Origin: a virus
Virus record (IMG/VR): IMGVR_UViG_3300010400_000153
Location: 1 to 21,258 of that record
Length of the DNA: 21,258 nucleotides
Strand: one strand, 5' to 3'
Positions 1,306-18,758 of the stretch are shown here, in pieces. The notes under the pieces are model-generated. The model was not told the DNA's origin, searched no databases, and worked only from the letters and a program-made list of their open reading frames with translations. A program made the position numbers and the translations under genes. How positions within the stretch are numbered: the stretch's first letter is position 1; every line of letters starts with the position of its first letter.

Positions 1306-1761
1306 ATGGACCTCGACAGGGCGTACAGGGAAGTTAGAAGCGAGATCCTCGCGGTCGCCAGGGCGATGGCCAAGGGCCGAGTAGACCTCGCAGAGGAGTA
1401 CGAATCGCTTGGGTCATTGGCCTTCATGAGGGCGGTGACGACGTACAGGAGCGATTGCGGCTCGTTCGGCGGCTGGGTCAGGATCCAGACCATGAACCAC
1501 ATCCGGGCCAGCCGCAGACGCGAGGACTACCGGACGCACCGCCAACTGCCCGACGAGAAGGACGGACCGACAAGCGGGCTGGAGTTCATGGCGCTCTTGT
1601 CCAACGACGCCAGGGAGGTGGCGACCACGCTCATTGTCGAGGCGCAGGGCGACGTACGCTACGCCTTGATACGCGCCAAAGAGTACCTCTACGGCGTCAT
1701 GGGCCGGACGCGGTTCGAGTCTGCACTGAATGAAGTCAAACACCACTGCGGAGTAACTTGA
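1306..1761 (+). CDS. Sigma-70-like factor, short phage type
   Basis: This 151-residue protein (ATG 1306, AGGGAG 8 bases upstream) has a sigma region 2-like block at about residues 25-70: DLAEEYESLGSLAFMRAVTTY, then FGGWVRIQTMNHIRASRRR. This follows the usual layout of 'DLxQEgxLGLxxAxxxF...FxxWxxxxxxxxIRxxxRR', which binds the polymerase clamp helices and the -10 element. The C-terminal part (SNDAREVATTLIVEAQ...GRTRFESALNEV) resembles the degenerate region 4-like tail of short phage sigma-like proteins. It would redirect host RNA polymerase to phage promoters. Its stop overlaps the helicase ATG (TGATG). A variant copy of the scattered 13-bp palindrome lies in its last codons (1722-1734). Assignment rests on pattern only. 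Confidence 0.7.
   Translation: MDLDRAYREVRSEILAVARAMAKGRVDLAEEYESLGSLAFMRAVTTYRSDCGSFGGWVRIQTMNHIRASRRREDYRTHRQLPDEKDGPTSGLEFMALLSNDAREVATTLIVEAQGDVRYALIRAKEYLYGVMGRTRFESALNEVKHHCGVT
1722..1734 (-). repeat. Variant copy of the 13-bp palindrome
   Basis: Read on the minus strand, this is TTCATTCAGTGCA, matching TTCATTCAATGAA at 11 of 13 positions. It lies within the 3' end of the sigma-like gene, 27 bases before the helicase start. It is the weakest of six copies. Confidence 0.4.
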
Positions 1762-4187
1762 TGTTGCTGTCCACGCTTTTACCGTTTCAAGCCGACGGTT
1801 TGGAGATGATCGAGCGGTTCGGCGGTCGCTGTATCTTGGGTGATAGCATGGGACTTGGAAAGGCCCAACCCATGAACTCACTGGTCCTGACCCCGCAAGG
1901 CTGGGTCGAGATGGGATGCATCGTCATCGGTGAGCCGATCATCGGAAGAGACGGAAAGACGCATCACGTCACCGGGGTATTCCCTCAAGGCGTGAAGCAA
2001 GTCTACAAAGTCACGTTCCGCGACGGTTCCTGTGCGAGGTGCTGCGGAAGCCATCTATGGGCAGTCTCCAGCCCATCCGACCGCATGCACGACAAGCCGT
2101 CAAGAGTCAAGACTACGGAAGAACTGATAGACGACTTGACAATCACCAACGGCAACGCCAAGTGGTCGATCCCCATGATCGCCCCGGTGGAGTTCATTGC
2201 CCAAGACGTACCCCTCGACCCGTACCTCGTTGGCTTCCTGATCGCCAACGGCGGATTGACCACGAATACACCAAGGGTAACGATACCGGACCGAGAAACG
2301 CTTGACAGGATCGTAGAATTACTGCCGCAGGGAGTTGCACTCAAGCAGCACAACGCCATCGACTTCAGCATCTCGAAAACGAACGGCGTTGCCAGGAACG
2401 GCACCAACCCGCTGACCGAGATCCTTCGCAGCCTCGATTTGATGGGAAAAGGGTTCTCCGAGAAACGTGTTCCGTCTGCCTACCTACTCAACACGTCCGA
2501 GATCAGGCTCGCACTGCTAAGGGGCTTGATGGACGGCGACGGAAGTGTGTACGACGGGGGAGGCACCGTCGAGTACAGCACCGGCTCACGAATCCTAGCC
2601 AAACAGGTACGTGGGCTAATCCAGTCAATCGGAGGGGTTGCGCGGATCAAGGCGAAAGATACCTACTACACCTACAAAGGCGAAAGAAGGCGAGGGGCAA
2701 CGAGCTACAGAATCAACATCTCGTTGCCCGGACACGTTAACCCGTTCCTCCTATCCCGCAAGGCGAAGGCGTACAAACCTAGGACGAAGTACCAACCTAG
2801 TCGAGCCATCATCAAGATCGAGGAAGATGGTAAGGAGGAGTGCCAGTGTATTAGCGTCAGCGCTCCCGACAGCCTCTACATCACTAACGATTTCATCGTG
2901 ACACACAACACGGTGCAGTACCTAGCGTACGTCGATCGGCACCCCGAACTGCGGCCGGCGGTCATCGTCACCGAAGCCTCGCTCAAGGAGAACACCAGAC
3001 GCGAGTGCATGAAGCACATCGGCCTGAAGGCGAACGTCGCCAGCGGTACGAACGCGCCGATAGCGGGGACGTACAACGAACCGGTGACGGTCATCAACTA
3101 CGACATCCTGCGCGACTGGCTGCCGACCTTGAAGGCGCTGAAGCCCCGGTTGCTCATCTTCGACGAGGCGCAGGCGCTGCGTACGCCAACGACGATACGC
3201 TCCAAGGCCGCACGCAAGCTATCCCAAGGCGTGGATAAGATCATCTTCGCTTCGGGTACGCCGATCGAGAACAGGCCGTTCGAGTTCTGGTCCACCCTGA
3301 GCATGTTGGACGAAGCCGAATGGGGCAGCGCTCACCAGTTCGGGCACCGCTACGGCGGCGCACGCCGCAACCCCTTCAGCGGCAAGTGGGAGTTCAAGGG
3401 GGCTACGAACACCCAGGAACTCCACGAACGGCTGCGTGCCAAGTGCCTGATCAGACGACGTAAAGAGGACGTACTCAAGGACTTACCGCCGGTCACCCGC
3501 AGCGTGGTGCCGATCAAACTGGGGACCAAGGAGCGCAAGGAGTACCGCGAAGCGGAACTCGACGTGGTCAAGTGGTTGAAGAAAAACTACTCCCCGGAAG
3601 CCGCCGAGCGTGCGGTACGCACCGAGGCGATGCAGCGCGTGAACGTGCTGAAGCAGTTGGCCGCCCACCTGAAAGTACCCGGGGTCATCGACTGGCAGCG
3701 TACGTTCCTTGAGTCCGGCGAGAAGCTCATGATGTTCGGCTGGCATACCCGCGTGGTCGAGGAGTTGGCCGCGAGCGTCCGGGGCAGCGTCGTGGTCCAC
3801 GGCAGCGTACCGGTCAACAGGAGGCAGGAGCGCTTCGATTCATTCAATGAAGATCCGCGCTGCGTACTCTTCAGCGGGAACATGCAGGCGGCCGGTAAGG
3901 GATGGAGTTGCACGTCCTGCTCCAACGTTGCCTTCTGCGAGTTCGCCTGGAGTCCCGGCATGCACGCGCAGTGCATCGACCGCTGTCAGGGGTTGTATCG
4001 CGGGCAAGTGGGGATACCGACATCGGCTTACTTTCTGGTAGCCAGCGAAACCATAGACACCAAGGTATGCAAAGCCGTGCAGGCCAAATCCCGCAACGTG
4101 GATATGGTGCTTGACGGCGAGGTCACCGAGAGCGGGTTCGACGTGTTCGACTTGGTATGTGACATGCTGGTCAAGGGAGGTGACTAG
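1761..4187 (+). CDS. SNF2-type DNA helicase/translocase, intein-containing
   Basis: The gene encodes an 808-residue precursor, which becomes a helicase of about 459 residues once the intein is removed. Visible SF2/SNF2 motifs are Walker A GDSMGLGK|T (split by the intein), motif II IFDEAQALRT (near residue 468), motif III FASGTPIENRP (near 498), and motifs V-VI as FSGNMQAAGKGWS and QCIDRCQGLYRGQ near the end. The length and lack of accessory domains fit compact phage SNF2-like helicases, ATP-driven translocases that remodel DNA during replication or repair. ATG 1761 is chosen because it overlaps the previous stop; TTG 1758 is one codon upstream. A strong GGGAGG lies just before the stop and serves the next gene. 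A perfect copy of the 13-bp palindrome sits in frame at 3839-3851. Confidence 0.93.
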   Translation: MLLSTLLPFQADGLEMIERFGGRCILGDSMGLGKAQPMNSLVLTPQGWVEMGCIVIGEPIIGRDGKTHHVTGVFPQGVKQVYKVTFRDGSCARCCGSHLWAVSSPSDRMHDKPSRVKTTEELIDDLTITNGNAKWSIPMIAPVEFIAQDVPLDPYLVGFLIANGGLTTNTPRVTIPDRETLDRIVELLPQGVALKQHNAIDFSISKTNGVARNGTNPLTEILRSLDLMGKGFSEKRVPSAYLLNTSEIRLALLRGLMDGDGSVYDGGGTVEYSTGSRILAKQVRGLIQSIGGVARIKAKDTYYTYKGERRRGATSYRINISLPGHVNPFLLSRKAKAYKPRTKYQPSRAIIKIEEDGKEECQCISVSAPDSLYITNDFIVTHNTVQYLAYVDRHPELRPAVIVTEASLKENTRRECMKHIGLKANVASGTNAPIAGTYNEPVTVINYDILRDWLPTLKALKPRLLIFDEAQALRTPTTIRSKAARKLSQGVDKIIFASGTPIENRPFEFWSTLSMLDEAEWGSAHQFGHRYGGARRNPFSGKWEFKGATNTQELHERLRAKCLIRRRKEDVLKDLPPVTRSVVPIKLGTKERKEYREAELDVVKWLKKNYSPEAAERAVRTEAMQRVNVLKQLAAHLKVPGVIDWQRTFLESGEKLMMFGWHTRVVEELAASVRGSVVVHGSVPVNRRQERFDSFNEDPRCVLFSGNMQAAGKGWSCTSCSNVAFCEFAWSPGMHAQCIDRCQGLYRGQVGIPTSAYFLVASETIDTKVCKAVQAKSRNVDMVLDGEVTESGFDVFDLVCDMLVKGGD
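1863..2909 (+). mobile_element. Class 3-type intein with LAGLIDADG domain
   Basis: This 349-residue in-frame insertion lies between Lys and Thr of the helicase Walker A motif. It begins AQPMNSLVLTPQGW, with Ala at position 1 where most inteins have Cys or Ser, and ends VTHN, followed by Thr of the extein. It carries the class 3 residues: Trp in block B (HLW, codon 2058), Cys in block F (QCISV, codon 2847) and Thr before His-Asn (codon 2901). Class 3 inteins splice from the block F Cys rather than from residue 1. Two LAGLIDADG helices are present: LVGFLIANGG (2226-2255), with Asn where the catalytic Asp is expected, and LLRGLMDGDG (2514-2543), intact. Splicing should be functional because all junction residues are present; nuclease activity is doubtful. 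Confidence 0.93.
3839..3851 (+). repeat. 13-bp palindrome, perfect copy
   Basis: TTCATTCAATGAA: arms TTCATT and AATGAA around a central C. It lies inside the helicase coding sequence (codons for Ser-Phe-Asn-Glu) and is followed by GATC. Confidence 0.6.
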
Positions 4188-4439
4188 ATGAAAATAGTAG
4201 TGAAGGTCAACGACAACGCCAAGCCGCAAACCGCAAACGCATTCAACAAGTGGCTTGCTAGCCTGAGCAGCGAGCAGTACCAGGAACTGGCGGCACTTGA
4301 CCATACATACGATACGGAGACGGATCCACGGAGATACACCCCTACAGCCGGAATCATCAGGGATTGGATCGAAGATCACGGCGGTGATCGCGGTTGGTGG
4401 TACGTCTTCTACACCGTCGTGGAGAAGGACAATGAGTAA
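4188..4439 (+). CDS. Array paralogue 1 of 6 (DWIEDHGG family)
   Basis: This 83-residue protein has the strongest ribosome site of the array (GGGAGGTGA just upstream). It contains WLASLSSEQYQELAALD (residues 23-39) and RDWIEDHGGDRGWW (residues 59-72). It differs from the others by Asp in place of the second Glu of EEHGG. It has no signal peptide or membrane segment. As first gene after the helicase, it probably sets translation of the coupled array. The D-W-I-E-x-x-G block resembles the DWLEExG core of the planctomycete domain TIGR02996; that relationship is inference and the function is unknown. Confidence 0.85.
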   Translation: MKIVVKVNDNAKPQTANAFNKWLASLSSEQYQELAALDHTYDTETDPRRYTPTAGIIRDWIEDHGGDRGWWYVFYTVVEKDNE

Positions 4440-4686
4440 GCGCTATATCATAGGGCCAAGGACCCAAGTGGACAGGGAAGACTTCAAGTTCATGAGATGG
4501 TTGGAAAGCCTGTCGGAGGAGCAAAAGCAGGAACTGGGCAGCATCGATTACCCCAGCGGCCTAGTACCATCGGTGCGCGATCAAGGGAGCTACCGCGAAA
4601 TCGCCGCCGATTGGATCGAGGAGCATGGAGGGAAGCGAAGCTGGTGGTGGGCCATCCTAACCGAGATCGTAGAGGAAGACAAATGA
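4432..4686 (+). CDS. Array paralogue 2 of 6
   Basis: This 84-residue protein starts at ATG 4432, 8 bases inside the previous gene in another frame. An in-frame extension upstream is a shadow. It has WLESLSEEQKQELGSIDY near residues 23-40 and ADWIEEHGGKRSWWW near residues 61-75, and an acidic end (IVEEDK). The N-terminus MSKRY resembles that of paralogue 4 (MGKRF), consistent with duplication of whole genes rather than of a domain. Confidence 0.85.
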   Translation: MSKRYIIGPRTQVDREDFKFMRWLESLSEEQKQELGSIDYPSGLVPSVRDQGSYREIAADWIEEHGGKRSWWWAILTEIVEEDK

Positions 4687-4910
4687 TGTTACCCTTCAGG
4701 TTCTTCTTCACCGACCGGAAAACCGAGCAAGAGATCAGGCAGTGGCTTGAAACACTGACCGAAGCGCAAAGGCAGGAACTGGCGGCGATCGACAGCACGT
4801 TCAAATACGGCAGGAAGGGTAGCGATGATGTCAAAGCCGTCACGCAGGATTGGATCGAGGAGCATGGCGGTAATAGGGAATGGTGGATGGACTTCGAGGC
4901 GAGGGGATGA
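4683..4910 (+). CDS. Array paralogue 3 of 6
   Basis: This 75-residue protein starts at ATG 4683, overlapping the previous stop as ATGA; a second ATG at 4686 is equally possible. It has WLETLTEAQRQELAAID and QDWIEEHGGNREWW. The N-terminus MMLPFRFFF is more hydrophobic and aromatic than in the others but too short for a membrane segment. The C-terminal tail after the WW is only about 6 residues, the shortest of the set. Confidence 0.85.
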   Translation: MMLPFRFFFTDRKTEQEIRQWLETLTEAQRQELAAIDSTFKYGRKGSDDVKAVTQDWIEEHGGNREWWMDFEARG

Positions 4911-5173
4911 TGGGTAAGCGCTTCAAGATCAAGGTCCACGACTCGTACGACTACGATTACATCGAGAAGGAGCTTGTCACATTAGAGGAGTGGCTCGAAT
5001 CGCTGACCGAAGCGGAAATTCAAGAGCTAGGAAGCATCGACTTCGGCTACCATTACAACCAGAAAGAGGCCGCCGTCAAGCAGTCGATCACACAAGATTG
5101 GATAGAGGAGCACGGCGGTGAAAGGGAGTGGTGGCGGCTGTTCGAGACGCTCATCGTGGAGAAAAAGGAATGA
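4907..5173 (+). CDS. Array paralogue 4 of 6
   Basis: This is the longest member at 88 residues, starting at ATG 4907 (ATGATG, overlapping the previous stop). The N-terminus has a Tyr/Asp-rich stretch (DSYDYDYIEKEL), followed by WLESLTEAEIQELGSID and QDWIEEHGGEREWW, and a Lys/Glu tail. The pair EREWW is shared exactly with paralogue 5, suggesting these two are the most recent duplicates. Confidence 0.85.
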   Translation: MMGKRFKIKVHDSYDYDYIEKELVTLEEWLESLTEAEIQELGSIDFGYHYNQKEAAVKQSITQDWIEEHGGEREWWRLFETLIVEKKE

Positions 5174-5394
5174 AGTACAAGGTCGGTCCACGTCCCGGTT
5201 GGTCGGTTCACGGCGAACTAAATGATTGGCTGAACTCCTTGACGGAGAAGCAGATCCAAGAACTGGGCAGCATGGATTACGGCTCCGGCGGGTACGACAA
5301 CAGAGACATACGGCCGATTATAAAAGACTGGATAGAAGAGCACGGAGGCGAGAGGGAGTGGTGGATAGCCATCTACACGCAGGTGATCCGATGA
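5170..5394 (+). CDS. Array paralogue 5 of 6
   Basis: This 74-residue protein starts at ATG 5170 with an ATGA overlap. It contains WLNSLTEKQIQELGSMDY and KDWIEEHGGEREWW, and a short C-terminal tail (IAIYTQVIR). A Gly/Tyr/Asp-rich variable loop (GSGGYDNRD) separates the two conserved blocks, as it does in every member; the loop is the main site of divergence. Confidence 0.85.
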   Translation: MKYKVGPRPGWSVHGELNDWLNSLTEKQIQELGSMDYGSGGYDNRDIRPIIKDWIEEHGGEREWWIAIYTQVIR

Positions 5395-5630
5395 CGGAGC
5401 GCTACGCATTCAACTACTACGCCAACGCCTCCGAAGAGATGAAGCGGTGGTTTGATTCGCTCACCCAGGAGCAGCGTCAGGAGTTGGGTCGGCTCGACTA
5501 CAGGAACGGGGCGTACCCGGAACTTACGGAACCGCAGATAGTCATGGATTGGATCGAGGAGCACGGAGGCAAGCGCCTCTGGTGGAACATGTTCAACGTC
5601 TACATCGAGATCATTCAGTTCACGGAATAA
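5391..5630 (+). CDS. Array paralogue 6 of 6
   Basis: This 79-residue protein starts at ATG 5391 with an ATGA overlap. It has WFDSLTQEQRQELGRLDY, with Phe where the others have Leu, and MDWIEEHGGKRLWW, and a longer hydrophobic tail (VYIEIIQFTE). It is the last gene of the operon: a small hairpin and a new promoter follow immediately. Confidence 0.85.
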   Translation: MTERYAFNYYANASEEMKRWFDSLTQEQRQELGRLDYRNGAYPELTEPQIVMDWIEEHGGKRLWWNMFNVYIEIIQFTE

Positions 5631-5646
5631 AGCCGATTCACGGCTT
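5630..5646 (+). terminator. Short hairpin after the array (weak terminator)
   Basis: AAGCCG-ATTCA-CGGCTT forms a perfect 6-bp stem directly at the stop codon of array gene 6. Only a few T bases follow, and it abuts the -35 of the next promoter, so termination would be weak. Confidence 0.35.
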
Positions 5647-5672
5647 GTCCGACGCCGAACCAGTGTTATAGT
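5645..5672 (+). promoter_or_regulatory. Promoter for the ParB/KorB-like gene
   Basis: TTGTCC (5645-5650) and TATAGT (5667-5672) are separated by 16 bases in a 102-base gap. The match to the sigma-70 consensus is good at -10 and moderate at -35. Transcription would start near 5679, just before the hairpin at 5688. Confidence 0.55.
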
Positions 5673-5687
5673 ACAGGTAGCAGTAAA

Positions 5688-5710
5688 GGGTCCGGCACTT
5701 CGCCGGACCC
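5688..5710 (+). promoter_or_regulatory. Leader hairpin before the ParB/KorB-like gene
   Basis: GGGTCCGGC-ACTTC-GCCGGACCC is a perfect 9-bp stem with a 5-base loop. No T-run follows (TCGAATAAAG), so it is probably not a simple terminator. It would sit near the 5' end of the mRNA, 22 bases before the ATG, and could protect the transcript or tune initiation. Confidence 0.55.
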
Positions 5711-5732
5711 TCGAATAAAGGGAGTACGGATC

Positions 5733-6815
5733 ATGGCGACAGCACCGAAGGTTAACGCGGGGCAGGTGACTCAGGGGTCTTTCCTCTTCGTCGATCCCAA
5801 GCAGATCGAGAAGGGCAAGAACAGCCGCTTCTTCGAGTTCACGGACGACCAAGTGATGGAGTTGGTGGCGAGCTACGAGAGCGTGGACACGACCGGCAAC
5901 CCGCAGGGGCAGTTGGTCCCGATCGAGTGCCGCATCGTCGAGCCGTCCAAGCGGCTGGAGGTTCACGCCGGCCGCAGGCGGCTCGAAGCGGCTATCCGTT
6001 ACAACGAACTGCACCCCGACGAGCCGATGAAGATCAAGGTTCTGGTGACCCGGTGCAGCGCCGAGGAGGCGTTGGTCAGGGGCATCCGCAACAACCGCGA
6101 CGTCGCGGCCACCAGTTGGGTTGACGACGCCTTCAACCAGAAGCGCCTCCGCGAGGAGCACGGCTGGGCCGACACCAAGATCGCGGAGTTGTACAACCAA
6201 CAGCCGTCGGTCGTGTCGAGGCTGAAGAAGCTGACCGGGCTGCGGGGCAAGGTCTTGAAGCTGATCCACGAGGGCGTGATCGGCCTGGACGCGGGTTGCG
6301 ACCTGTCGGAGGTCGATGACATCTCGCAGGACGAGATCCTGCTGAAGATTCAGCAGATGCAGGACGAGCACGAAGCGGAGGAGAAGAAGCGCCGTGCGGA
6401 ACTGATCGAAGAGGCGGCGGCGATGCCTCAGGACCCGCCGTCTGCTAACGGCGACGGGGACAAGAAGGAGCCGGCCAAGAAGGGTCCGAAGGCACCCAAG
6501 GCGTCGGCAAAGCCGGCGGTCAACGGCCGTAAGAAGCCGGCCGAAACGCCCTCCCAGATCGTCAAGAAGGGCGTCCGCGCGGCCAAGGAGGCGGCGGCAA
6601 AGCCGGGCGAAGAGAAGAAGAAACAGCCCCGATCCCTCAAGGAGGTCAAGGACTTCTTCGGCGGGTTCGACGGGCCGCGCGAAGACCCCGCCGTCCGCAC
6701 GTTCGCCGGGCTGGTGATGGAGTGGGTCGAAGGTAAGATCACCGACCTGCGCATGACCAAGGTCATGAACGACATGATCTGCGAGAAGAAAGAGAAGGAA
6801 AAGGAGACGAAGTAA
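5733..6815 (+). CDS. ParB/KorB-like DNA-binding protein
   Basis: This 360-residue protein starts at ATG 5733 after GGGAG. Residues 15-110 match the ParB/Spo0J N-terminal domain, with the signature LEVHAGRRRLEAAIRYNEL (near 69-87), where ParB proteins have a 'xxxGxRRxxAa' box that binds nucleotide. A helix-turn-helix region follows at about 125-165 (RLREEHGWADTKIAELYNQQ, then PSVVSRLKKL). The C-terminal half is a Lys/Ala/Pro-rich linker (about 225-295) and an acidic-basic end. ParB-family proteins bind palindromic sites for partition or, as in KorB, for global repression. The gene has its own promoter and terminator, unlike most of the window. Function as partition protein or regulator is not decided by sequence. 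Confidence 0.85.
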   Translation: MATAPKVNAGQVTQGSFLFVDPKQIEKGKNSRFFEFTDDQVMELVASYESVDTTGNPQGQLVPIECRIVEPSKRLEVHAGRRRLEAAIRYNELHPDEPMKIKVLVTRCSAEEALVRGIRNNRDVAATSWVDDAFNQKRLREEHGWADTKIAELYNQQPSVVSRLKKLTGLRGKVLKLIHEGVIGLDAGCDLSEVDDISQDEILLKIQQMQDEHEAEEKKRRAELIEEAAAMPQDPPSANGDGDKKEPAKKGPKAPKASAKPAVNGRKKPAETPSQIVKKGVRAAKEAAAKPGEEKKKQPRSLKEVKDFFGGFDGPREDPAVRTFAGLVMEWVEGKITDLRMTKVMNDMICEKKEKEKETK

Positions 6816-7248: not shown

Positions 7249-7988
7249 TGTGGAAGCCGATAACCGCTAGTGACGGCGGCCCGTTCATATGCTGCACCTG
7301 CCGCAGGCCGGGACGTGAGGCGCACTGGGCCACGGCCCCGAAAGGCACGCCGTGGCACGGAATAGCAGTCTGTCATACATGCGTCAGGACGGCAAGCAGG
7401 CGTAACCGGGAACATTGGGAGGGTGCTACCGTGGACAGTTGGCGCAAAGTCTGGCGCGAGGGGTTCTACCCGCTCTTGAGTAACGAAGCGATACAAGCAA
7501 TCTTCGAGGGTCTGCTGGCGGACGATAAGGCGCTGATCCAGGGCGCTACGACGCAACCGCCTCCTTTGCAAGCGGTGCAGGATTGGCCCTGCGAGGGGGC
7601 CGACATCATCGGCTACGGCGGTTGGAAGGGCGAAGGTCTGGAGACGGTAGGCGAGGTCGAGGAGTACTTCGCCCGGCTGTCGTTCGAGTGTGATAACCGA
7701 ATTGGAGAACCGGCCGGTTGCCGCTGGTTCCTCAACTGGTGGGATGAATCAACCCGCAGCGAGGTCGTGTTCAAGATGATTTGGGAGATCCGATACCTCC
7801 GGTATCGCGACATCATCAACGGCTCCTACGACCTCGCCAAATCGGCCATGCCCGGGGTGATGCTGGCGATCAGCGAGAAGCCGGAGGATACTTTCAATTG
7901 GACGGCGCTCGCTGACGTTCTGGAGGAGATCGGCTGGGACGCATCGGCCAAGGTCGTGCGCCACTGGGTAAAGGAGACGACCGGATGA
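7248..7988 (+). CDS. Hypothetical protein with zinc-binding N-terminus and LADVLEE-like C-terminus
   Basis: This 246-residue protein begins at ATG 7248, overlapping the previous stop. The N-terminal 45 residues have CCTC and CHTC pairs (near residues 15-18 and 41-44), a plausible zinc site. The middle is Trp-rich and unrecognised. The last 35 residues (FNWTALADVLEEIGW, then a helix ending VVRHW) resemble the 'ADxLEExG' segment common in planctomycete proteins. It overlaps the primase gene by 4 bases. Function is unknown; position suggests a replication accessory role. Confidence 0.75.
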   Translation: MWKPITASDGGPFICCTCRRPGREAHWATAPKGTPWHGIAVCHTCVRTASRRNREHWEGATVDSWRKVWREGFYPLLSNEAIQAIFEGLLADDKALIQGATTQPPPLQAVQDWPCEGADIIGYGGWKGEGLETVGEVEEYFARLSFECDNRIGEPAGCRWFLNWWDESTRSEVVFKMIWEIRYLRYRDIINGSYDLAKSAMPGVMLAISEKPEDTFNWTALADVLEEIGWDASAKVVRHWVKETTG

Positions 7989-8881
7989 ACCTGATCGAGT
8001 TCTTGGACGAGCACGACATCGATTACCGCCTCCCCGGGATGCACCACCACTGCTCCAACGGGTGGGTTAACCTCGACTGCCCGATGTGCTCGCCAGGGTC
8101 CGGGCACTTCCGGCTGGGCATCAACGAACGCTCGCACGCCTCGTGCTGCTACGTCTGCGGCAAGCAGAACACGGCGTTCATTCTCTCGCACGCGGCGGGC
8201 ATGAACTACGACGAATGCCGCAAGGTCATGGGCGGGATGAACGCCGCTAGGGTACGCAAGAAGCCCCGTGGCAAGCTGAAGATGCCGACGGGGACGTACC
8301 CGCTGAACACCGGGTCGGTCAACCCGGGCTACGGCGCTGGGGCGCACCGCGAGTACCTGCGGGGTAGAGGGTTCGACCCGGATGAGATCATGAGGACGTG
8401 GGGGGTTATGGCGACCGGCCGGGTATCTTCGCACCCGTGGTCGCTGGTCATCCCGATCGAGGACGAGCACGGCGAGGTGGTGAGTTTCACGACGCGGCAA
8501 CTGCACGACCGTGGCATACGCTACAAGTCGGCAGCGCCAGACGAGGAGGTAGTGAGTCACAAGGAGGTGCTCTACGGGGAGCGCTGGGCGTCTAACGCGG
8601 TGATCGTGGTCGAGGGTCCTCTGGATGCGTGGAGCATCGGCATGGGCGCGGTCGCCACGTTCGGGCTGGCGGTCACCGACGCGCAACTGGACCGGCTGTC
8701 GCGGTTCCCCCGCCGCGTCATCTGCCTGGACGCCGAAGGGTTCGCGCAACGCCGCGCAAACCGATTGGCGGATGCGCTGAGTTGTTTCCCGGGGGAAACC
8801 ATCTGCATCAAGATCGATTCGCCGGACCCGGGTAGCGCCACCCAAGAAGAGTTAACGGAGATCCGCAAATGGCTGGAGTAA
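7985..8881 (+). CDS. DNA primase (zinc finger plus TOPRIM)
   Basis: This 298-residue protein resembles short phage primases. Residues 19-60 form a CHC2-like zinc-binding domain: HHHC, DCPMC, a Gly-His-Phe strand and CCYVCG. After a basic linker comes a TOPRIM domain, with VIVVEGPLDAW near residues 203-213 supplying the metal-binding Glu, and ICLDAEGFAQ near 250, where the usual Asp-x-Asp is Asp-x-Glu. Such enzymes make RNA primers at the fork. The second-position Glu is conservative and could still bind metal. It lies with an initiator, a DnaB-type helicase and a clamp in the same window. Confidence 0.88.
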   Translation: MNLIEFLDEHDIDYRLPGMHHHCSNGWVNLDCPMCSPGSGHFRLGINERSHASCCYVCGKQNTAFILSHAAGMNYDECRKVMGGMNAARVRKKPRGKLKMPTGTYPLNTGSVNPGYGAGAHREYLRGRGFDPDEIMRTWGVMATGRVSSHPWSLVIPIEDEHGEVVSFTTRQLHDRGIRYKSAAPDEEVVSHKEVLYGERWASNAVIVVEGPLDAWSIGMGAVATFGLAVTDAQLDRLSRFPRRVICLDAEGFAQRRANRLADALSCFPGETICIKIDSPDPGSATQEELTEIRKWLE

Positions 8882-9584: not shown

Positions 9585-9974
9585 ATGCACCTGATCATGA
9601 TGCTCGCGCTGGCTGCGCCGCTGCCGTTCCCGAAGCAGGGGCCGGAGTTCACTCCTGGGAACTACAACCTGACGTGGGGAGGCAAGGAGTACGCCCTCCG
9701 GCTGGTCAACCACCGGCATTACATCCTCTTCAACCGGGCGAAAGGGCTGTACGACGGGCACTCCGGTGATTGGGAGGTGGATAGGAAGGGACGCCTGCTG
9801 TTGTGGTGGGGTAAGCTGGACACGCTAGGGTGTCCGCCGGGGAGGAGGTTCGGCTACAGCAGCGCCGAAATGATCTACCTGCGCTATCTACCATCGGACC
9901 GGACGTGGGCCGGTAAGGGGTGGAGTGACGAGCGTCAGGAGTGGCTGAAGTACGAGCTAACCAGGGAGAAGTGA
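9585..9974 (+). CDS. Small secreted protein, planctomycete WGG type
   Basis: This 129-residue protein has a short hydrophobic N-terminus (MHLIMMLALAAPLPF) that looks like a signal peptide with cleavage after about residue 11-13. The mature part is beta-rich: GNYNLTWGGKEYALRL, then GDWEVDRKGRLLLWW. I recall similar small exported 'G-x-Y-x-x-x-WGG' proteins from Gemmata-like planctomycetes; their function is not known. It follows the tiny membrane protein by 3 bases and overlaps the next gene as TGATG. Confidence 0.75.
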   Translation: MHLIMMLALAAPLPFPKQGPEFTPGNYNLTWGGKEYALRLVNHRHYILFNRAKGLYDGHSGDWEVDRKGRLLLWWGKLDTLGCPPGRRFGYSSAEMIYLRYLPSDRTWAGKGWSDERQEWLKYELTREK

Positions 9975-10366
9975 TGAGTACATCGGTAGAGAGGCAGACA
10001 AGACACGCGGAGTACCTTCAAAGGTTCTCCATCGTGTTCCACGACATCCGGCAGATGATTGCCAGAGGGGAGTTGTCCTGTAAGGAGGCGTGGGTACTTC
10101 TGATGATCGACGAGTACGCCGTCCGGTGGAGTGGAGTCGATGATGTGCAAGATGGATTCGATGACGAGCACATTGCTGCCGAACTCAACCTAACTGCGCT
10201 GAAGGTAAGAGAGATAACCGGGAGGTTAAGGGAAGTAGATTTAGTCAGGCTCTGGAACTTCCGCTTCATCGGAAGTCGTGACGAAGGCAGTACGCTAGAG
10301 TCGAAGTGGTCGATGGAGGACAGGCTGAACGGCGTATGGCCTGAAGGGACCGAGCCTATTCCGTAG
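9974..10366 (+). CDS. Winged-helix protein related to the replication initiator
   Basis: This 130-residue protein starts at ATG 9974 (TGATG). Residues 35-100 (EAWVLLMIDEY, IAAELNLTALKVREITGRL, VDLVRLW) have the same layout as the N-terminus of the next, larger gene (EALLLMYVDH, LAKKLNLEVRQIQNIIAKM, IGLLARV). The pair therefore look like ancient duplicates, this one lacking the C-terminal domain. Such proteins may act as repressors or partners of the initiator. The downstream promoter begins immediately after its stop codon. Confidence 0.7.
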   Translation: MSTSVERQTRHAEYLQRFSIVFHDIRQMIARGELSCKEAWVLLMIDEYAVRWSGVDDVQDGFDDEHIAAELNLTALKVREITGRLREVDLVRLWNFRFIGSRDEGSTLESKWSMEDRLNGVWPEGTEPIP

Positions 10367-10461: not shown

Positions 10462-11829
10462 ATGTCCGACAGACATCCTACGTCCGACCCCACCCTCCGT
10501 CAAGAATCCGAAGAAGAACATCAACTACGCTGCCGCCCTTCGTTCCCGGAAGAGATTCTCTTCCTGATCGAGGACGGAGAGGTCGGACACAGTGAGGCTC
10601 TCCTCCTGATGTACGTCGATCACCTCGTTCACACGCGGGGCGTCGGGTGTTTCGCGTCGAACGCCTACCTTGCGAAGAAACTCAACCTAGAAGTGCGGCA
10701 GATCCAGAACATCATCGCCAAGATGGTGAAGATCGGGTTGCTCGCGCGTGTGGGTACGATCAACCGGAATGGCAAGGATTTCAGGCTCATGGAGACGGCG
10801 TGGAGTCGCATCAAAAGGTTCGATGGGGTGCAATTGGTTGCACCGGAATTAACATCTGTACAGATGCAATCCGTAACACCTACACCCATGCAATTTTCTG
10901 CACACAGAGAGACTAGAGTAAATACAGAGATACTAGAGAGAGCGCGAACAGCCGCTGACGCGGCTGGTTCGGCGCACACGCGCAATGGAACACACACAAA
11001 GAACGGAACGCCACCCAGAGATAAAGTGGCGCGCGCGCAACAAGACAAATTCGAGCTAGGAATCAAACCGCCACCTGACGAATCGGAACCCGCTCGCTGC
11101 GCTCGCTGGTTCAAACGAATCGTCGAGGAGGTCAAGAAGACACCGTGGAACGTCTCCCTGCAAGAGGCGAAGCCTCACTTCGTTCGGCTGATCGCCAAAT
11201 GCAAGGGAGTCGTCACCGAGGTAACGGACGTGCTGGACTGGTGGGAAAAAAACCCCGATCAGTGGCGCTGCAAGACACCGAAGACGTTCTACGACCGGTT
11301 CGCGGATATGCAGGACAAGATGAAGAGGACAACCAAGCCTTTGATCACGATGCCGGATAAATCGACTCCGGTAATCCTCGAACCGGAGGTGGTCGAGATC
11401 GTAGACGAATTGAAGACGCTGGGCTGGCCCAAGGGCAGCCTCACCAACCTCCCCGAAGCGACCGCCAGGACGTACGACGCGATGAAGGCGATGTACTCGA
11501 AGCTGTACCGGGTCAAGAAGCGGATCGCCGAAGGCGACACCCTCCAAGGCCGGACGCCGATGGAGATGCGTGAACTTGCGCACTACATCGAGGAGGTGAT
11601 CGCCGTCATGGGGATGCATGCGCAGTCCGCCGCCACCCACTGGATGCGCAGCGTCCACAAGCGTGTCGCCAACTGGGCCGACTGGTCCGGTGACCTCAAG
11701 TCGTACGTCTTCTCGTACTCGAACAAGCAGTTCCTCTCCTTGCTCGCGGACGTATCGCGGCGGTACGATTCGGGGAACCCGAAATGGGTGCCGTTCTTTC
11801 TCGAATCGCTGGGCGTCCGCCCGGGATAG
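10462..11829 (+). CDS. Replication initiator-like protein (winged helix)
   Basis: This 455-residue protein starts at ATG 10462. Residues 28-115 are a winged-helix DNA-binding domain (EALLLMYVDH, NAYLAKKLNLEVRQIQNII, KIGLLARVGTIN). Residues 120-205 are a Thr/Asn/Arg-rich, low-complexity linker. The C-terminal part (about 215-455) is helical, with WFKRIVEEVKKTPWN and DVLDWWEKNPDQWRC reminiscent of DnaD-like or helicase-loader domains. By analogy with lambda O and DnaD-type phage initiators it would bind the origin and recruit the DnaB-type helicase encoded at 15407. The linker DNA holds the palindromes and direct repeats described under the candidate origin. Confidence 0.7.
   Translation: MSDRHPTSDPTLRQESEEEHQLRCRPSFPEEILFLIEDGEVGHSEALLLMYVDHLVHTRGVGCFASNAYLAKKLNLEVRQIQNIIAKMVKIGLLARVGTINRNGKDFRLMETAWSRIKRFDGVQLVAPELTSVQMQSVTPTPMQFSAHRETRVNTEILERARTAADAAGSAHTRNGTHTKNGTPPRDKVARAQQDKFELGIKPPPDESEPARCARWFKRIVEEVKKTPWNVSLQEAKPHFVRLIAKCKGVVTEVTDVLDWWEKNPDQWRCKTPKTFYDRFADMQDKMKRTTKPLITMPDKSTPVILEPEVVEIVDELKTLGWPKGSLTNLPEATARTYDAMKAMYSKLYRVKKRIAEGDTLQGRTPMEMRELAHYIEEVIAVMGMHAQSAATHWMRSVHKRVANWADWSGDLKSYVFSYSNKQFLSLLADVSRRYDSGNPKWVPFFLESLGVRPG
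10827..10938 (+). other. Candidate replication origin inside the initiator gene
   Basis: This stretch is low in GC for the window and packed with repeats. There is an inverted repeat GGTGCAA-TTGG-TTGCACC (10827-10844), a perfect 14-bp palindrome CATCTGTACAGATG (10853-10866) and three TGCAAT words (about 10829, 10865, 10889). Two 15-base direct repeats, ACAGAGAGACTAGAG (10904-10918) and ACAGAGATACTAGAG (10924-10938), lie 20 bases apart. It encodes the linker between two domains of the initiator, the place where lambda-type origins lie. Confidence 0.5.
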
Positions 11830-12788: not shown

Positions 12789-13244
12789 ATGGTGTGGTTG
12801 CTCGTAGCGTTCTACTTCGGCGCTAGCATCGTCATGTCGATCAACGCGGCGTATGACATGATCTACAACCCGGACTTCTGGCTGACCGAAGGGGACAAGC
12901 AGCGTGGCCTGAAGGAAGTGACGCCGGGCATGATGACCGCTGGCATGGTGACGGTGCTGCTAGTCGGTCCGGTCGTCGCCGCAGTGGTGTATTTCGCAAG
13001 GGTGTTCGCCGTTTTAAGGGAGTCGATGATGAGCGAGACTAAGAAAGAAGTCTGGATCAAGGGCGACAAGGTCCGCGCCAAGAACAACCACGTCACCGAT
13101 TTCGGCGACGAGGACGGGATCGTGGTCGGCGTCTACGGCGACGGCTACTGCGGCTTCGAGTGCCCCGAAGGGGTACTCACGGTCGGCTTCACCTCGACCT
13201 CGCACAAGGTCACCAGCCCGGCGACCGATTGGGTGCGCGTATGA
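12789..13244 (+). CDS. Two-segment membrane protein with soluble C-terminal domain
   Basis: This 151-residue protein (ATG 12789, GGAGGACGGAG upstream) has a first membrane segment at residues 2-20 (VWLLVAFYFGASIVM), a loop, and a second at about 48-76 (MMTAGMVTVLLVGPVVAAVV). A separate C-terminal part (80-151) looks like a small SH3/KOW-type barrel (WIKGDKVRAKNN, DGIVVGVYGDGY). An internal ATG at 13026, preceded by AAGGGAG, could give a free 72-residue soluble product. Function unknown. Confidence 0.7.
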   Translation: MVWLLVAFYFGASIVMSINAAYDMIYNPDFWLTEGDKQRGLKEVTPGMMTAGMVTVLLVGPVVAAVVYFARVFAVLRESMMSETKKEVWIKGDKVRAKNNHVTDFGDEDGIVVGVYGDGYCGFECPEGVLTVGFTSTSHKVTSPATDWVRV

Positions 13245-14110
13245 ACGAAGCGGAGTACTTCGAGTGCCGCAACCCGACGACGCTGCTGAACTACGCCGGC
13301 TTCGTCAACGACCGCAAGCTGCGTCTGTGGGTGTTCGCGATGTGCGCCCAGGCGCATAGCTTGGACTACGCAAGGAAGCACTACGCGAAGTGGGAGGACG
13401 GCGAGAGCGGGGGCATAGACGACGAAGACGCCCTGGTCGTAGCCGTGTCGCGAGACTGGTCGCTCTTCCCGAGCGAGGGGATAGATGCGCTGGAGCAATG
13501 TAACCTGTTCCGGGAGGTCGTCGGTAACCCGTTCCGGCCCGTATCGCTGCCGGAGAGCGTCCGGGGCGAGCCGACCGTGCGTGAACTGGCGCTCGCCGCT
13601 TACGAGCAGCGGAGGCGCATATGCGGACGCTGCAAGGGGAGGCTGGGACGTTGGGGCAGGGGCGAGTTCGACGCCGAATGGAAATCCTGTTCGGCGTGCG
13701 GCGGTGAAGGTTTAATCGATAACGGGACGCTCGACCCGGCCCGCCTCGCCGTCCTGTCCGACGCTTTGGAAGAGGCTGGGTGCCCGGCAGACGAACCTTG
13801 CCGTCGGTGCTACGGCCGGGGCATGGTGGCCGACCCGCCGGGAATGGAGGCGTTGCTGGACGCAGAGGCCGAGTCGGGCGCTCTGACCCTGTCGGGGGCG
13901 TGGACGCGGTGCCACATGTGTAACGGGAGTGGCCGCACCCCACATCCGATACTGGACCACCTGCGCATCGCGCCGAGCACGGACCATGTACGACGCTGCG
14001 GCACGGAGTTCAGGGGCTGCGCCCCTGAGTGCCCCAAAGACCGCTGGGAGCGCAACGGACCGCACGTTCGCGGATGCTGGGCGCTCGATCTGATCCTGTC
14101 CAAGGAGTAA
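13241..14110 (+). CDS. Gemmata-type protein with inserted CxxC zinc pairs
   Basis: This 289-residue protein starts at ATG 13241 (ATGA overlap). The frame of the protein follows a pattern I recall from many Gemmata genes: NPTTLLNYAG and DRKLRLWVFAMCA near the start, GNPFRPVSLPESV, TVRELALAAYEQR, LAVLSDALEEAGC, and GPHVRGCWALDLILSKE at the end. Set into it are DnaJ-like CxxC pairs (CGRCKGRLG, CSACGGEG, CRRCYGRG, CHMCNGSG), which could bind two zinc ions. The host-type skeleton is strong evidence for gene exchange with a planctomycete. Function of the bacterial family is unknown. Confidence 0.85.
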   Translation: MNEAEYFECRNPTTLLNYAGFVNDRKLRLWVFAMCAQAHSLDYARKHYAKWEDGESGGIDDEDALVVAVSRDWSLFPSEGIDALEQCNLFREVVGNPFRPVSLPESVRGEPTVRELALAAYEQRRRICGRCKGRLGRWGRGEFDAEWKSCSACGGEGLIDNGTLDPARLAVLSDALEEAGCPADEPCRRCYGRGMVADPPGMEALLDAEAESGALTLSGAWTRCHMCNGSGRTPHPILDHLRIAPSTDHVRRCGTEFRGCAPECPKDRWERNGPHVRGCWALDLILSKE

Positions 14111-14427: not shown

Positions 14428-14969
14428 TGAGAGCGATTTCCGGATTCTTTGGGTACTTCATCGACGACAGCGGGACGGTCTGGTCGATACGGGGGAAGGG
14501 TAAGCCTGGAGCACTTCGGGATGTGCCAGGACGCCTAAGAACGCAGGAGAACCAACACGGACACCCCTTCATCTACCTGAGAGTCAAGATGAAGAGGTAC
14601 AAATTCTACATCCACCGTCTAGTTCTACAAGCGTTCGTCGGACCGTGTCCGGAAGGGATGGAGTGCCGCCATCTGGACGGGAATCCTAGAAACAACAAGT
14701 TGACCAACCTGAAGTGGGGCACGAGGCAGGAGAACGAGAGTGACAAGGTCGCTCACGGGACTGGCAACCAGGGTGAGAGGAACGGTATGTCGAAGATAAC
14801 TTGGGAAGTCGCAGAGGAGATCCGCAAGCGTTACGCCAGCGGTAAAGAGACGCAGAAGGCTATCGGTATGGACTACGGGATAAGCGATGGGACCGTATGC
14901 AACATCGTCAACTACAAGGCGTGGACCTTCAAACCACGGATCCCGGAGGTAGCTAATGACACCCCGTGA
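14427..14969 (+). CDS. HNH endonuclease (homing type)
   Basis: This 180-residue protein starts at ATG 14427. The N-terminal region (GYFIDDSGTVWSI) resembles NUMOD4-like strands. The HNH core is YIHRLVLQAFVGPCPEG, CRHLDGNPRNNKLTNLKWGT and RQENESDKVAHG: His-Arg, His-Leu-Asp-Gly-Asn and Asn-Leu-x-Trp are the usual metal and catalytic positions. The C-terminus (SKITWEVAEEIRKRYASG, then a short HTH) fits a NUMOD-type DNA-binding module. Such enzymes are free-standing mobile genes that cut DNA to spread. Its end overlaps the next gene by 14 bases, suggesting insertion at a gene junction. Confidence 0.9.
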   Translation: MRAISGFFGYFIDDSGTVWSIRGKGKPGALRDVPGRLRTQENQHGHPFIYLRVKMKRYKFYIHRLVLQAFVGPCPEGMECRHLDGNPRNNKLTNLKWGTRQENESDKVAHGTGNQGERNGMSKITWEVAEEIRKRYASGKETQKAIGMDYGISDGTVCNIVNYKAWTFKPRIPEVANDTP

Positions 14970-15396
14970 AGCGTTCGAGTCGGTCCTAAGGACCAACCGC
15001 TACGACTGGGAGACGCGCAAGGTCTATAGCGATTGGTTGGAAGAGAACGGCTTCGATGACGAAGCAGCGGAGCAGCGCCTGTGGACGCCTGACTGGCAGA
15101 AGTCGATGGATTGGATGACGGAGTGCGCGGCCAAGATCCGGATGCCGGTCGAGGAGTTGATCAACCACGGCCGCGACTGGGTCGAGAACCACAACGGCGT
15201 GTACGGCGCGGACTTCGTCAAGCACGTCATCAGGGAGAAGGACGAGGAAACCGGCGAGGAGTGGGACGACGGCGGTAACGAGGCGCGTGACATAATGAGC
15301 GGCCTTTACCCCGAATTCTGGAGGCACTTCGAGATCGTTACCCGCACCACGGTCGATGACCGCAAGAAGGAATCCTTTTTCACCTGCTCGTGCTGA
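14956..15396 (+). CDS. TIGR02996-domain protein
   Basis: This 146-residue protein begins MTPREAFESVLRTNRYDWE, then VYSDWLEENGFDDEAA. This matches the TIGR02996 repeat-companion domain (pattern AFLxAIxxxPxDDxxRLxYADWLEExGxxxxA), described in Gemmata obscuriglobus and abundant in related planctomycetes. The rest is helical and acidic, ending FFTCSC. The domain's molecular role is unknown. It lies between the HNH gene and the DnaB-type helicase, 10 bases before the latter. Confidence 0.85.
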   Translation: MTPREAFESVLRTNRYDWETRKVYSDWLEENGFDDEAAEQRLWTPDWQKSMDWMTECAAKIRMPVEELINHGRDWVENHNGVYGADFVKHVIREKDEETGEEWDDGGNEARDIMSGLYPEFWRHFEIVTRTTVDDRKKESFFTCSC

Positions 15397-18682: not shown

Positions 18683-18758
18683 GCCTGGGGTAGCTCAGTT
18701 GGACAGAGCGACCCGCCATAATGGGGAAGCGCGTGGGTTCGATCCCCACCCCCGGGCA
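18683..18758 (+). tRNA. tRNA-like gene with abnormal anticodon arm
   Basis: The acceptor stem CCTGGGG/CCCCGGG (18684-18690 with 18750-18756, one G-U) can extend by G18683:C18757, which recalls the extra pair of tRNA-His. The D arm GCTC-AGTTGGACA-GAGC and T arm GTGGG-TTCGATC-CCCAC are canonical, and T8 and A9 are present. In the anticodon arm only three pairs form (C28-C30 with G40-G42); 27/43 are A-A and 31/39 are G-G, and position 33 is C instead of U. The loop reads CCATAAT, so the anticodon is uncertain (ATA by numbering, CAT by eye). No CCA is encoded. Confidence 0.6.

Follow-up and report, generated by a model that had tools for sequence, protein, structure and literature searches.

The window, the whole stretch of DNA that we analyzed, is a 21,258-base IMG/VR virus record whose likely genes lie on the + strand. 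They include a weak sigma-factor-like match and genes for an SNF2 helicase, a ParB-like protein, a primase, a replication initiator, a DnaB-like helicase, and a polymerase clamp. Six small genes fill positions 4188-5630, between the SNF2 helicase and ParB-like genes. This array and the features discussed with it are as follows:

1758..4187, + strand, SNF2-type helicase, directly upstream of the array
4188..4439, + strand, copy 1 (g1), 83 residues; its start adjoins the helicase stop codon
4432..4686, + strand, copy 2 (g2), 84 residues; overlaps copy 1 by 8 bases
4683..4910, + strand, copy 3 (g3), 75 residues; ATGA overlap with copy 2
4907..5173, + strand, copy 4 (g4), 88 residues; ATGA overlap; AlphaFold2 model, pLDDT 83.6
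5170..5394, + strand, copy 5 (g5), 74 residues; ATGA overlap
5391..5630, + strand, copy 6 (g6), 79 residues; ATGA overlap; closes the run
5645-5672, + strand, promoter-like match TTGTCC-16-TATAGT with an extended -10, in the gap that separates the array from the ParB-like gene; at a level expected by chance
5733..6815, + strand, ParB-like protein gene, downstream of the array
14956..15396, + strand, TIGR02996-like domain gene; 24.7 bits, E 1.5e-5, under the 29.05-bit cut-off

All six array ORFs are intact and follow one another in the same direction, with the end of each copy overlapping the start of the next. The junction between copies 1 and 2 is an 8-base overlap, and the remaining four are 4-base ATGA overlaps. 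A purine-rich stretch precedes every internal start; in a simple count of Shine-Dalgarno matches, only the first and last starts of the array stand out against random positions. The six proteins are acidic, with a pI of 4.7-5.2 and a net charge of -3 to -10; a DNA-mimic inhibitor would be expected to have a DNA-like surface of strong negative charge. In the gap before the ParB-like gene, just after the promoter-like match, lies a strong 10-bp GC-rich hairpin with no T-run (5687-5711), which could be a terminator or a leader structure. On the other side of the array, the SNF2 helicase carries an in-frame LAGLIDADG, intein-like insert at its Walker A motif (GDSMGLGK / T), which begins with Ala and ends with HN before the T.

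The copies share 31-49% pairwise identity, and every pair scores far above 200 shuffles (lowest z 19, mean z 23). The original prediction of six tandem, coupled paralogous genes encoding 74-88 residues is borne out by these scores and by the six overlapping frames. Conservation is concentrated in two blocks, W-L-x-x-L...E-L...D and D-W-I-E-[ED]-H-G-G-x-R-x-W-W. Across the six copies and two relatives described below, 14 columns are invariant (W29, L33, E40, L41, D45, D64, W65, I66, E67, G70, G71, R73, W75, and W76 in copy 4 numbering), a result that comes from eight sequences in two carriers only. Both blocks had been proposed to be invariant around a variable loop. They are conserved, but not to that degree: block 1 reads WF in copy 6, replaces its first Q with E in copy 4, and shows S/T and A/E changes, while copy 1 reads DWIEDHGG in place of D-W-I-E-E-H-G-G. 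The loop does vary, but so do the N-terminal 20-25 residues and the tail.

Synonymous change among the copies is saturated, with dS undefined or above 1 for all pairs and dN at 0.34-0.86. Because identical residues often use different codons and dN is lower than dS wherever both can be computed, the copies are old duplicates whose core has been kept by purifying selection. The selection for diversity suggested earlier would fit the separate multi-copy expansion in two unrelated phages that is described below. The shuffle z scores and the codon and divergence analysis speak against chance similarity and against one duplicated ORF as origins of the array, and both were rejected.

An AlphaFold2 model of copy 4, built on the eight-sequence alignment, is confident (pTM 0.75) and has a strand-four-helix-strand fold: a strand at 5-10; helices at 20-32, 35-49, 52-68, and 73-78; and a strand at 79-85. 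DWIEE closes the third helix, HGG makes the turn, and REWW opens the fourth helix. Foldseek found no neighbor of this model at E ≤ 0.001, with best matches at E 2.6 in the PDB and 2.2 in BFVD. Likewise, none of the six copies has a significant match to Pfam, NCBIfam, PHROGs, PADLOC, or the PDB; the best profile matches reach E 0.008 in PHROGs and, below the cut-off, 0.036 in Pfam, with zero in PADLOC. Profile searches of known families and phage collections thus link the array to no known family, and its earlier description as unrecognised holds for all of these libraries.

We found no relative in INPHARED phages, PLSDB plasmids, or 392 Planctomycetota genomes (E ≤ 0.01); one plasmid gives a weak match (E 0.07) under an annotated integrase. 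The 95 Limnoglobus family genomes gave only weak matches to the array profile, and looser DW...WW and WL...QEL pattern scans returned the known contig and chance matches only. No close relatives of the phage itself were found in IMG/VR through the ParB-like protein, SNF2 helicase, or DnaB-like helicase, or in the 95 Limnoglobus family genomes through the clamp and ParB-like protein. Among the collections searched, IMG/VR alone holds an array relative: two profile-based searches and three pattern scans there yielded one contig, IMGVR_UViG_3300010400_000031. This second carrier is 42.5 kb long and has two tandem, ATGA-linked copies of the family:

7971-8213 and 8210-8446 (L002 of the second carrier), copies r1 and r2, 68.8-69 bits against the six-copy profile

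One row of alignment A2 has an extra T because its start was taken as 7968. The arrays of the two contigs thus belong to one family and are tandem and ATGA-linked in both, but they differ in copy number and in their neighbors. BLASTP of the second carrier against the window revealed no other gene convincingly in common. The gene upstream of r1 and r2 is joined to them by an ATGA overlap and contains a degenerate TIGR02996 motif, LLVLADYIEEHG (12.5 bits, E 0.097). The second carrier also encodes a terminase and a DUF1559 protein whose N-terminus is of the prepilin type. The DUF1559 family is abundant in planctomycetes. Elsewhere on this contig (G001, L006/L007), 36422-37012 and 40271-40846 are 59%-identical paralogues about 3.8 kb apart.

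The two copies of the second carrier are 58% identical and group together with support of 96/91 and 92%, matching no particular pair among the six window copies. Since they group together, no single window copy corresponds to either of them. Their placement indicates that each of the two phages multiplied its copies on its own, or homogenised them. Because both carriers hold several copies, repeated expansion seems to be characteristic of the family and not accidental.

The array proteins had also been said to resemble TIGR02996, the NCBIfam model named 'rpt_mate_G_obs', which spans 45 positions and has a curated cut-off of 29.05 bits. This domain is abundant in Gemmataceae and also occurs in Archangium and deltaproteobacterial assemblies; our paper searches returned no description of it or of a 'repeat-companion domain'. 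Judging from the TIGR02996-like gene at 14956-15396, which is the array profile's next-best match within the window (E 0.0023), the host is likely a Gemmataceae planctomycete. None of the six copies matches the NCBIfam model at E ≤ 1, and a home-made model gives them 4-11 bits. Membership of the array proteins in TIGR02996 was rejected on model score, as they miss the 29.05-bit cut-off.

In a profile-profile comparison with TIGR02996 domains, the eight-sequence alignment scores 24.7-26.3 over 20-22 columns (probability 61-64%), compared with a maximum of 17.1 in 100 column-permuted controls. Of the weak array-profile matches in the 95 Limnoglobus family genomes (E 0.01-0.05), four of six are TIGR02996 proteins aligned in register, and 94 TIGR02996 ORFs as a class clearly outscore other ORFs. 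When the motif was held fixed and the flanks were shuffled, scores dropped little (median p 0.08-0.33). What the two share is D-W-[IL] followed by EE-x-G; the full P-R-L-V-[YF]-A-D-W-L motif is not found in the array, which has no P-R-L-V-Y-A. The likeness is therefore a helix-turn motif of about 10 residues, better than chance. The resemblance originally predicted stands above chance but extends only to the residues around DW[IL]EE-x-G, and the idea of adapted host domains survives as a lead rather than as family membership, since no copy passes the TIGR02996 model.

Structural models place this motif similarly. In a modeled TIGR02996 domain of three helices, DWLEE ends the second helix, GD makes the turn, and the next helix carries R-A-E-F-I-R. 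Judged by secondary structure alone, the region around the motif agrees with that of copy 4, except that the next helix of copy 4 is short and leads into a strand. The [x]DW[IL]EE-x-G[GD] motif, at a helix end before the turn to the next helix, is common to both, but TIGR02996 is without the WLxSL...QEL block, the RxWW, the extra helix, and the two strands of the array proteins. TIGR02996 matches here are mostly parts of longer proteins, whereas the array proteins stand alone. Common descent of the two is possible from these sequence comparisons. A further weak lead comes from the TIGR02996 model, whose weak PDB matches include several TPR proteins (E above 2); it shares short helices and tight turns with such helical-hairpin modules. 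The array protein itself, with no PDB neighbor, is not a repeat protein.

We tentatively favor the reading that the array encodes a phage-restricted family of protein-binding modules. Each would combine one conserved face with variable surfaces, and multiple copies would be retained so that several partners can be bound. These small, acidic, single-domain proteins would have expanded in tandem and be made from one translationally coupled transcript beside the replication genes. The DWIEEHGGxRxWW face could be structural, a shared docking surface (for each other or for one common partner), or both, while the variable N-terminus, inter-helix loop, and tail might give each copy a partner of its own. 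As a set, the copies could engage several host or phage proteins early in infection, for example as adaptors or inhibitors. This reading accommodates the coupled array, similarity far above chance, a conserved core with a variable N-terminus and loop, old copies under purifying selection, two tandem copies on a second, otherwise unrelated contig, and a confident fold without known neighbors. The motif and its helix-turn-helix placement resemble TIGR02996, whose modeled domain has the weak TPR matches, and the gene coupled to the pair in the second phage has a degenerate TIGR02996 motif. On the other side, the old duplicates may have diverged by drift and not through selection for diversity, the TPR-like matches are weak, the charged face, strictly conserved as it is, could instead serve catalysis or bind nucleic acid, and only two carriers and eight sequences stand behind the conservation. 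A bolder version seems unlikely: here the phage would have taken the helix-turn core of a domain expanded in its planctomycete host, remodeled it as a novel stand-alone fold, and amplified it into diversified binders of several host proteins.

The same observations can be arranged differently. The copies might assemble through the DWIEEHGGxRxWW face into a fixed hetero-oligomer, perhaps with the SNF2 helicase or ParB-like protein. Translational coupling is typical of co-assembling subunits, the putative interface is conserved, and the array sits between the helicase and ParB-like genes; we nevertheless consider this doubtful, as the copy number is six in one phage and two in the other, the 42.5 kb of the second carrier contain no helicase or ParB-like homologue, and a fixed complex would not predict that r1 and r2 fit no particular pair of the six. 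A similarly guarded view applies to the proposal that the phage carries its own copies of the host's TIGR02996 domain and uses them as decoys of, or to compete for, host proteins with that domain. The profile-profile score above all permuted controls, the in-register genome matches, the high scores of TIGR02996 ORFs, and the DW[IL]EE helix end before a glycine turn in both models all speak for it. However, no copy reaches the TIGR02996 model at E 1, the array's extra helix and two strands are missing from the TIGR02996 model, and flank shuffles around a fixed motif score nearly as well, so convergence on a short helix-turn motif is possible.

It is improbable that the genes are tandem duplicates that persist for dosage, or do little, and have diverged by drift. 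Phages often carry small tandem duplicates, and no function was found, but 14 columns remain invariant over eight sequences even though synonymous change is saturated, none of the six frames is broken, and two unrelated phages each hold the family in more than one copy. An anti-defence role, with each copy blocking a different host defence protein, would be a special case of the binding-module reading and would suit small, acidic, multi-copy, rare, accessory-like proteins. We regard it as unlikely, given that no match in PADLOC or to a known inhibitor was found and that the array lies in a replication operon rather than a recognised anti-defence island.

Whatever its role, the family matches nothing in the databases, no neighbor of its predicted fold turned up in the libraries searched, and its range is two phage contigs that are otherwise unrelated. 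If, as in the binding-module reading, the copies bind different host proteins, they could be used to discover what planctomycete phages need to control, and might help to explain TIGR02996, which is widespread in Gemmataceae.

Several further features of the window lie outside the array. The nearby proteins encoded at 9974-10366 and 10534-11829 resemble each other by eye in the region of a replication-initiator helix-turn-helix; the libraries searched gave no match for the first, and HTH_36 and O-like initiators for the second. The ORF at 13160-14110 contains several cysteine-pair, zinc-binding-like motifs and bears a weak resemblance to the central domain of DnaJ and to phage Q antiterminators (PHROG E 8.5e-5). 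At 18683-18758, ARAGORN predicts a tRNA-Tyr with the unusual anticodon AUA, and the same stretch has an Rfam tRNA match.
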